Below, piece by piece: positions 32,342 to 34,055 of a DNA stretch of 64,000 nucleotides. Position 1 is the first letter of the stretch; each line of letters begins with the position of its first letter. The stretch is from Streptomyces humi (GTDB taxonomy: Bacteria > Actinomycetota > Actinomycetes > Streptomycetales > Streptomycetaceae): positions 124,001 through 188,000 of the forward strand of contig NZ_LBMU02000040.1 in the NCBI RefSeq assembly GCF_001005085.2. The letters are read 5' to 3'. The translations under genes were made by a program, and so were the position numbers. The notes under the pieces are model-generated. The model was not told the DNA's origin, did not search any database, and was given only the letters and a program-made list of their open reading frames with translations.

Positions 32342-32500
32342 CTACCGCCGTCGCGGGGCCAGCTTGAACAGGGCCACCCCGGCCGCCACCAGCGTCGTGG
32401 CCGCCACCACCATCGCCATGCTGTTGATCCACAGCCCGGTGGCGGCCAGGGTCGCACCTCCGGCGCCGGTCGTGCCCGCGCCGATCACTCTGCCGTACAT
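32342..32500 (-). CDS. 52-residue membrane microprotein with LAATG-TM-RRR tail, linked to a GT2 gene
   Basis: ATG 32498-32500 has an AGGAG ribosome site seven bases upstream, which supports translation of this short frame. The protein starts MYGRVIGAGTTGAGGATL. LAATG at residues 18-22 is followed by one hydrophobic helix (about 23-45) and ends in LAPRRR. Motif, helix and basic tail look like the sorting signal of a class E sortase (LAxTG), but here it forms nearly the whole protein and there is no N-terminal signal peptide. The gene lies 30 bp downstream of a membrane glycosyltransferase on the same strand, so they are probably one operon. It could be a small GT subunit, a peptide acceptor for glycan, or a plain membrane peptide. 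Confidence 0.72.
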   Translation of the reverse strand: MYGRVIGAGTTGAGGATLAATGLWINSMAMVVAATTLVAAGVALFKLAPRRR

Positions 32501-32530
32501 CGCTTTTCTCCTATGCGAATTGAAGGGGTC

Positions 32531-33637
32531 TCACGTCGCCACCCACTTCTCCTCGCTGCGGCGGACCAGCCCCCACAGCGAGGTGAAGTAGACGGCGTGC
32601 TGGAAGAGGTCGTAGAGCATCTCCGGGACCATCAGCGCGGCGACCAGGACGGCCTTGGGCCCCGCCCGCCGTACGGAGACGGTCTTCTCGACCACGAAGA
32701 TCAGGCCGATCGCCGTCCAGAACGGCGAGAAGCCGGGCCAGCCGTACAGCGCGGTGTAAGTGGCCATGTAGGTCAGGTAGATCAGGAAGGAGAGCGCGCC
32801 GAAACCCATCAGGAACTGCTGCATGAAGTAACGGGCGGTGACCCGGGTCCAGCCGTAGTCGCGGAGGTTCTCCAGCGCGCCGCGCTGCCAGCGCAGCCGC
32901 TGGTGCCACAGTTTCGGCAGGGTCGGCATGACCTCGGTGGTGACCGAGCAGCCGGCCGGGGACATGGCCCGGTAGCCGAGGGTCTTGACCGCCTTGGTCA
33001 TCTCGTCGTCCTCGGTGAGCGAGGCGAGGCTGTAGTAGCTGGTGCCGCCGCCGAGTTCGCCGGCCCGCCGGGCCGCGCGGACCTCGCGCAGCACCCGGGC
33101 GCGGAACATCGTGCCGGTGCCGGTGAGGACCTGGGCCTTGCCGCCGGTGCGTTCCAGCTCCCAGGCGTAGCGGTGGAACTCCATGCGCTGGAGCAGGCCG
33201 AGGAAGCCGCCGCCGTCCTCGCCGTAGAAGACGCCGCCGACCGCGCCGACCTTGCGGTTGAAGGTGGCGATGGCGGTCTCGGCGAACCAGGGGTTGAGGA
33301 CGGTGTCGGCGTCCTGGACGAGGACCAGGTCGCGGTCGTCCAGGTGCGGCAGTGCCCAGGAGATGGCCTGGTTGAGGGCGCCGGCCTTCTTGTGGGTGTT
33401 GCCCTGGGTCTGGAAGACCTGGGCGCCGTGCGCGGCGGCGATGACGGCGGTGTCGTCGGTGCAGTTGTCGGCGACGACCACGATCAGGTCGGGGCGCCGG
33501 GTCTGCTCCCAGAGGCCGTCGATCGCGGCGAAGATACGTTCCTGCTCGTTGTGGGCCGGGATCAGGACGACGAGTCTCGGCCGGTCGGCGGGCTCCTCCG
33601 GGGCGGCGTGGGCGCGGCGCGCGGCATGACGGCGCAC
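32531..33637 (-). CDS. Membrane glycosyltransferase family 2 (processive-type)
   Basis: 368 residues from GTG 33635-33637 behind a run of G. The cytosolic GT-A domain has RLVVLIPAHNEQERI at the start, VVVADNCTDDT, LVQDADTVLNPWF (the DxD metal site), and TEDDEMTKAVKTLGY. QRLRW (in LWHQRLRWQRGAL) is the Q(Q/R)xRW motif of processive synthases such as hyaluronan, cellulose and PNAG enzymes. Three or four C-terminal membrane helices follow (FLMGFGALSFLIYLTYMATYTALYG and others). It lacks the N-terminal membrane helices of cellulose synthases. Product unknown. A 52-residue membrane peptide follows in the operon. Confidence 0.88.
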   Translation of the reverse strand: MRRHAARRAHAAPEEPADRPRLVVLIPAHNEQERIFAAIDGLWEQTRRPDLIVVVADNCTDDTAVIAAAHGAQVFQTQGNTHKKAGALNQAISWALPHLDDRDLVLVQDADTVLNPWFAETAIATFNRKVGAVGGVFYGEDGGGFLGLLQRMEFHRYAWELERTGGKAQVLTGTGTMFRARVLREVRAARRAGELGGGTSYYSLASLTEDDEMTKAVKTLGYRAMSPAGCSVTTEVMPTLPKLWHQRLRWQRGALENLRDYGWTRVTARYFMQQFLMGFGALSFLIYLTYMATYTALYGWPGFSPFWTAIGLIFVVEKTVSVRRAGPKAVLVAALMVPEMLYDLFQHAVYFTSLWGLVRRSEEKWVAT

Positions 33638-33803: not shown

Positions 33804-34055
33804 TTACACGCCATACCCGTCCGTGTATCCGTCACGGTGGTGATGGTGCCGTTCCTCCTCGACGACCGTCGCGGCGGGCGGCACCATGACCCGCCGACGG
33901 CGGGCGATGCTGCTGAACGTGGCGACGCCGATGATGCCGACGGCCATCAGGATCAGGCCCACGACGTCGAGGTTGACGCCCTGCATGTGCCAGTCGGTCG
34001 CGAACGTGAGGATGGCCCCCACGGCGATGAGGATGATGCACCCGCCGAGCCCCAT
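33804..34055 (-). CDS. Small two-TM membrane protein (DUF6458-like)
   Basis: 83 residues from ATG 34053-34055 behind GGGGAGG. Two membrane helices (GLGGCIILIAVGAILTFAT and VNLDVVGLILMAVGIIGVATF) surround a short loop containing DWHMQGVNLD. A basic patch RRRR and a His-rich tail (EEERHHHHRDGYTDGYGV) follow. Such two-helix proteins are common in Streptomyces with no known role. It is on the same strand as the GT2 gene, with 167 bp between. Confidence 0.8.
   Translation of the reverse strand: MGLGGCIILIAVGAILTFATDWHMQGVNLDVVGLILMAVGIIGVATFSSIARRRRVMVPPAATVVEEERHHHHRDGYTDGYGV

Follow-up and report, generated by a model that had tools for sequence, protein, structure and literature searches.

A processive-type GT2 glycosyltransferase gene paired with the gene of a small LAATG membrane protein in Streptomyces, related bacteria and phages: a candidate synthase cassette with a sortase-tagged partner

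In Gram-positive walls, glycopolymers are fixed by LCP enzymes and proteins by sortases, and chloroviruses hold a hyaluronan synthase gene that is accompanied by a UDP-glucose dehydrogenase gene. No route known to us pairs a polysaccharide synthase with a sortase substrate that is dedicated to it and carries no protein cargo. To our knowledge, hyaluronan synthase (HAS)-like enzymes need no protein primer, and PgaD and IcaD carry no sortase motif. Among described systems, the synthase PgaC depends on PgaD, a small membrane protein, and on c-di-GMP (PMC8461298). The class E sortase of S. coelicolor recognises LAXTG (PMC5148588), and in Actinomyces oris GspA, glycosylated by LcpA, is sortase-anchored (PMC6381275).

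The window (the whole stretch of Streptomyces humi DNA that was analysed, 64 kb) holds on its minus strand a GT2 gene (33637-32531, 368 aa) whose stop is followed, after a gap of 30 bp, by a 52-codon gene (32500-32342). Both frames of the original prediction were recovered on that strand and at those coordinates. The product of the small gene (MYGRVIGAGTTGAGGATLAATGLWINSMAMVVAATTLVAAGVALFKLAPRRR, 52 aa) carries LAATG, one helix and RRR, and the peptide matched no family in Pfam. The features of the pair were as follows:

32531..33637, minus strand: processive-type GT2 synthase of 368 aa with a GTG start (sequence, Pfam, AlphaFold2 model, fold search)
33305..33313, minus strand: GT2 motif DAD (DxD), for metal and nucleotide sugar (sequence; invariant in alignment A2)
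33002..33016, minus strand: TEDDE catalytic-base motif of the GT2 (sequence; TED.E invariant in alignment A2)
32888..32902, minus strand: QRLRW, the QxxRW of processive GT2 enzymes (sequence; Q, R, R and W invariant in alignment A2)
32508..32512, minus strand: Shine-Dalgarno AGGAG of the small gene (kept across related loci)
32342..32500, minus strand: small partner gene, 52 aa, TAG stop within the coordinates (codon-level purifying selection; linkage to GT2 in 76/78 non-redundant loci)
32495..32497, minus strand: Tyr2 codon, sole tyrosine of the predicted exported tail (Tyr position count over 67 partners)
32435..32449, minus strand: LAATG, class E sortase-type motif, expected cut between T and G (pN/pS; varied X in distant relatives)
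32363..32434, minus strand: single predicted membrane helix, about residues 23-46, then KLAPRRR (read-through model of low confidence; charge distribution)

A separate gene lies upstream of the GT2 (33804-34055, minus strand) and encodes an 83-aa membrane protein with DUF6458 and a His-rich stretch near its end.

Given that GC-rich DNA often holds short frames, the 52-codon gene could have been a chance or non-functional frame; this explanation is now given a negligible probability. Across 46 distinct gene sequences pN/pS was 0.19 for the whole gene and, by part, 0.09 (tail), 0.002 (LAATG) and 0.31 (helix), so that the peptide is under strong purifying selection and LAATG is its most constrained part. 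The strong ribosome site that had been proposed was borne out by an AGGAG 7 bases 5' of the ATG, kept in related loci. No other small frame of the type L[AP]xTG-helix-basic end was present in the 64 kb, 10 Markov shuffles yielded none, and none was found near the 22 other GT2 (PF13641) loci of the same genome. Selection, the conserved ribosome site, the genome-wide pairing with GT2 and these controls led us to reject the chance frame, which conservation refutes; phage annotators have also called the small frame a gene.

The pairing was followed in named genomes (54 GT2 relatives, mostly from Streptomyces, Actinacidiphila and Streptacidiphilus), where a MY..LAATG..helix frame was present 21-155 bp downstream in 48/54; four of the others had a homologous frame lacking the motif and two were truncated or unclear. 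Nearly all of the MY..LAATG frames were preceded by an AGGAG-like site. S. canus DSM 40017 and S. antibioticus DSM 40234 are among the Streptomyces strains with the pair. When 297 genomes of the class were searched with a profile of the peptide alone, 11 matches were obtained at E <= 2.5e-4, and all 11 lay directly downstream of a GT2 of the same family, down to about 45% identity. Searches in the opposite direction, starting from GT2 at the levels of class, family and phylum, gathered 78 enzymes (90%-non-redundant), and a homologous small membrane partner adjoined the GT2 in 76 of these loci, often with a spacing of 2-10 bp or with the partner start overlapping the GT2 stop. Conservation of the short frame with GT2 genes, on which the original prediction had staked itself, held well outside Streptomyces. 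The pairing was shown by sequence comparison, in which the GT2 and the small gene appeared as one cassette. One orphan mini-protein (MYQGTTIGSGGALAMTG..RRRR; L124:1501-1677) was seen with no GT2 of the family within 1.5 kb, in a genome (G706) that also holds a complete GT2-LAATG pair (L170). For a GT2 of a Streptococcus satellite phage (35% identity), the next frame encodes an unrelated soluble protein and not the partner.

Pfam matches of the GT2 were PF13641 (E 9e-18) and PF00535, and its motifs QDADT, LTEDDE and QRLRW supply the DxD, TED and QxxRW of processive GT2 enzymes (HAS/BcsA/NodC-like). In an AlphaFold2 model (pLDDT 80.8) a GT-A domain was followed by three membrane helices on its C-terminal side, and there was no N-terminal membrane helix. 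Among the folds listed, the nearest solved ones were hyaluronan synthases (Z 22-23, rmsd 3.6, 312 residues aligned), followed by chitin and cellulose synthases; the overall fold of processive GT2 enzymes, including the interface and C-terminal membrane helices, was thus recovered. Residues 15-357 of the model corresponded to chain 77-449 of the Chlorella virus hyaluronan synthase (Z 23), and since the match begins at chain 77, the first 76 residues of the viral enzyme, its N-terminal membrane segment, have no counterpart. The best explanation of these predictions is that the GT2 is a hyaluronan synthase-like polysaccharide synthase with a polymer as its predicted product, and the cassette reading as a whole is given about an even chance. 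A glycan context was seen at several loci, with a CE4 deacetylase gene after the partner in L205 and L215 and GH26 genes close by in L177, L178 and L221. Long open frames that resembled natural GT2-peptide fusions were discarded as stop-to-stop artefacts of GC-rich DNA.

The cassette was also found in phages. Microbacterium phages Merry, Tyrumbra and Count encode a GT2 that is 44-49% identical to that of the window, and for Sunny, RobsFeet and Fireman a GT2 was deduced from hits matching those of the first three. In those phages whose region was read, the GT2 was followed within 10-13 bp by a LAATG protein of 50-51 aa that is annotated as hypothetical. More distant pairs were found in phages TinyMiny, SilentRX and Cantare (GT2 of 29-34% identity, then a MYG..LAxTG protein) and on two low-GC viral contigs (24-32% GC; GT2 of 26-28% identity), where the GT2 was followed by MYNKTVLPQTG... 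and MYNNSGMVLPQTG..., respectively. The phage and viral pairs were positioned as follows:

Merry, L253:2495-3701: GT2 and LAATG protein
Tyrumbra, L254:2486-3694: GT2 and LAATG protein
Count, L255:2495-3706: GT2 and LAATG protein
Low-GC viral contig, L274:3001-4200: GT2 and MYN..LPQTG mini-protein, 6-8 residues before the motif
Low-GC viral contig, L275:3001-4250: GT2 and MYN..LPQTG mini-protein, 6-8 residues before the motif

The low-GC contigs are probably from phages that infect low-GC Gram-positive bacteria. Merry and Tyrumbra also have a gene for UDP-glucose dehydrogenase, about 2 kb beyond the pair. Phages of cluster EC are described as lytic, and the retention of both genes in compact lytic genomes argues well for a pair that functions as a unit. 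Judged from these sequences, the cassette is not confined to bacteria and is carried by phages.

The mini-protein has the L-A-X-T-G motif, hydrophobic helix and basic end of a class E sortase substrate. Neither an N-terminal export signal nor an exported domain was found: only 6-22 residues precede the motif, Gly/Ala/Thr-rich and nearly uncharged, and there is no second hydrophobic segment, so that export would depend on the single helix being inserted N-out. By the charge rule we infer an N-out/C-in topology. About 50 of the 78 non-redundant loci showed L[AP]xTG with many different X residues, eight of them having P for A (one doubtful motif, LAPTG of L200, was excluded from the motif counts). 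Distant relatives had LAMTG, LASTG, LADTG, LAFTG, LAQTG, LPDTG, LPVTG, LPETG and LPQTG, of which LPETG was found in another class of the phylum. The varied X and the A/P alternation are a kind of degeneracy that a sorting signal would show and helix packing would not. By analogy, a class E sortase would be expected to cleave LAATG between T and G. All 67 motif-bearing partners (50 bacterial and 17 phage or viral) had a tyrosine among residues 1-4 (residue 2 in 61 of them), and the remaining 834 tail residues contained none. The literature searched gave no explanation for this conserved N-terminal tyrosine; hypothetically, it could be explained by a role as glycan acceptor or by a contact with the synthase.

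GT2, L[AP]xTG protein and sortase were consecutive in four genomes of two lineages, with LAMTG in G541 (where the last two genes overlap by ATGA) and LPITG or LPVTG in G182, G329 and G372. Two of the operon sortases were compared with NCBIfam models, and the class E model was best for both, with the G329 enzyme above the cut-off and the G541 enzyme below. A sortase was present in 64/66 genomes with a GT2 of the family, including all of the motif-bearing genomes searched, and the two sortase-free genomes carry motif-less partners fused to GGDEF. The genome of the window had 11 PF04203 (sortase) matches, a count at family level by which a class E sortase was scored as present; no sortase gene adjoins the window pair, and the closest sortase cluster lies on the same contig at a distance of about 56 kb. 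In three genomes of one family (loci L222, L223 and L224), a same-strand sortase gene lies 6.3-7.7 kb after the GT2; this may be ordinary neighbourhood and not part of the system.

The motif was not universal. In the GT2 tree (a quick tree with some long branches, in which fine placement is unsure), the motif-bearing state required five changes. At least three losses of the motif fell within otherwise motif-bearing lineages (e.g., LAARR, LTAPF and LTYAG), with the N-terminal MY and the helix kept, and in one clade of 15 enzymes (C/G types) the partner has a helix and neither MY nor motif. Four of this clade have a partner that continues into a GGDEF domain (PF00990, E 5e-19), whose active site looked mostly degenerate on inspection, and three C/G-clade loci have separate GGDEF or GGDEF-EAL genes nearby. 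Downstream of the GT2 in L142, L227, L156, L158 and L134, the partner helix was seen fused to a multi-helix GGDEF protein. A GGDEF-fused partner could possibly be a c-di-GMP-sensing subunit of the polysaccharide synthase. Given that the helix is kept where the motif is lost, it must serve the GT2 in some way of its own, and anchoring by sortase cannot explain everything; the losses, together with the C/G clade that lacks both motif and tyrosine, indicate that the partner can work without sortase. All partners thus have the predicted helix as their core, to which one half of the family would add a sorting signal and the other half c-di-GMP control. The original reading of the short peptide as a sortase signal therefore stood in part: the unconstrained X, the exchange of A and P, the occurrence of LPxTG in other classes and the class E sortases in the operon speak for it, whereas the motif losses with a retained helix and the clade that never shows the motif limit it to a portion of the family.

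We propose, at about even odds, that the cassette is a polysaccharide synthase with a dedicated, sortase-processed membrane partner that ties the glycan to the wall. The mini-protein would insert beside the GT2, its arginines on the inner side and its short tail, rich in Gly, Ala and Thr, on the outer side, and its helix would sit next to an enzyme that is without the N-terminal membrane helices of other synthases. The class E sortase of the host (in some genomes the enzyme of the same operon) would then cut LAAT|G and link the tail to a peptidoglycan precursor, leaving the tail peptide MYGRVIGAGTTGAGGATLAAT as the one expected on the cross-bridge after this step. Given that the tail carries only one N-terminal tyrosine, the purpose would most likely be to tie the product of the synthase to the wall and not to display a protein.

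A glycan on the tail or on the tyrosine is put forward as a hypothesis, with the tyrosine as the likeliest point of contact or attachment. Its most specific form is judged rather unlikely: the tyrosine would prime or accept the GT2 polymer, the growing chain, reducing end first, would draw the small, uncharged tail out through the synthase, and sortase would cut L[AP]xT|G and fix the Tyr-glycan to lipid II, so that the glycan became covalently wall-bound and phages could coat infected cells, e.g., against superinfection. The working of HAS-like synthases without a protein primer counts against the tyrosine or tail as glycan acceptor. An extracellular tyrosine is also out of reach of a cytosolic active site unless there is a further step, which speaks against the tail as acceptor.

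Several of the same observations would suit an accessory subunit like PgaD or IcaD, on which the activity or stability of the GT2 would depend, with sortase only removing or parking that subunit (turnover, shut-off or localisation at the growing wall) and no glycan attached. The helix is common to all partner types, including the motif-less ones, and would complete a synthase that has no N-terminal helices of the HAS/BcsA kind; the GGDEF fusions and nearby GGDEF/EAL genes of the C/G clade are as expected of a regulatory subunit, and the dependence of PgaC on PgaD and c-di-GMP offers a precedent (PMC8461298). This account leaves unexplained why constraint in Streptomyces is greatest on LAATG, why exactly one tyrosine stands at the start of the tail every time, and why there are sortase operons; we consider it the main rival, possible but unlikely. 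In a co-fold of a related in-frame locus, obtained by reading through the GT2 stop, the helix formed (pLDDT about 50-60, low confidence), and the model, which did not set it against the GT2, gave no confident position for it.

It is improbable that the mini-protein is a minimal sortase substrate with a surface role of its own (e.g., as a hydrophobic or structural wall peptide), to which the GT2 only adds short sugars before anchoring. The Thr-rich tails and the glycosylated, sortase-anchored GspA (PMC6381275) would fit such a role, but QxxRW marks the GT2 as of the processive type, its membrane part resembles that of HAS, phage tails of only 6-8 residues leave little for a structural function, and the motif-less variants retain the GT2. 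Of the three roles first suggested for the peptide, those of a GT subunit and of a sortase-anchored peptide acceptor may each apply; the observations had no bearing on the third, a lid on glycan export.

If the cassette works as we propose, in tying a glycan to the wall through the sortase-processed partner, it would be a third route of wall attachment, testable in ordinary Streptomyces strains, and would account for a class of tiny LAXTG proteins largely missed by annotation. The pair in strictly lytic phages would offer a model system that is small and easily handled, and suggests that the cell surface is remodelled in the course of infection.

In the open-access literature searched, beyond which further papers could exist, no account was found of a GT2 that has a sortase-tagged mini-protein as its partner. 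The closest family of small proteins is NCBIfam NF058583 ('LAXTG motif-containing small protein', LAXTG_small_WW), which has the same size, motif and helix and was matched over its full length by the peptides of L193 (E 1.3e-9) and L068 (E 3.4e-7), both adjoining a GT2 of the family; its name, by contrast, shows no link to a glycosyltransferase. It evidently belongs to the same superfamily as the mini-protein, though the window peptide (10.4 bits, E 0.4) and all tested relatives (best 37.6 bits) score below its cut-off of 65 bits. Class E sortase substrates (chaplins and the LAXTG proteins of Streptomyces, PMC5148588) share LAXTG, a hydrophobic helix and a basic C-terminus with the mini-protein, which differs in having no signal peptide or exported domain and in its fixed partnership with a GT2 gene. 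LcpA and GspA of Actinomyces oris (PMC6381275) link a glycan to a sortase-anchored surface protein, but LcpA is an LCP phosphotransferase, another class of enzyme, and GspA is a large substrate protein. Hyaluronan synthases resemble the GT2 in predicted fold (Z 23), and the lytic Microbacterium phages, like chloroviruses, hold the synthase gene near one for UDP-glucose dehydrogenase, whereas the GT2 described here has 13-15% identity to hyaluronan synthase, no N-terminal membrane helices and an additional sortase-tagged partner. PgaC/PgaD and IcaA/IcaD also combine a processive-type GT2 with a small membrane protein in one operon, and the c-di-GMP link recurs in one clade here; in contrast to theirs, the partner in this family has one helix and a predicted N-out tail with L[AP]xTG. 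The best NCBIfam match of the GT2 was PgaC_IcaA (E 1.4e-15), at 57.1 bits against an equivalog cut-off of 422; PgaCD/IcaAD is the nearest functional analogue, and the GT2 falls outside that family. We rate the GT2 with its sortase-tagged mini-protein as a system of a new kind, with the function proposed above.
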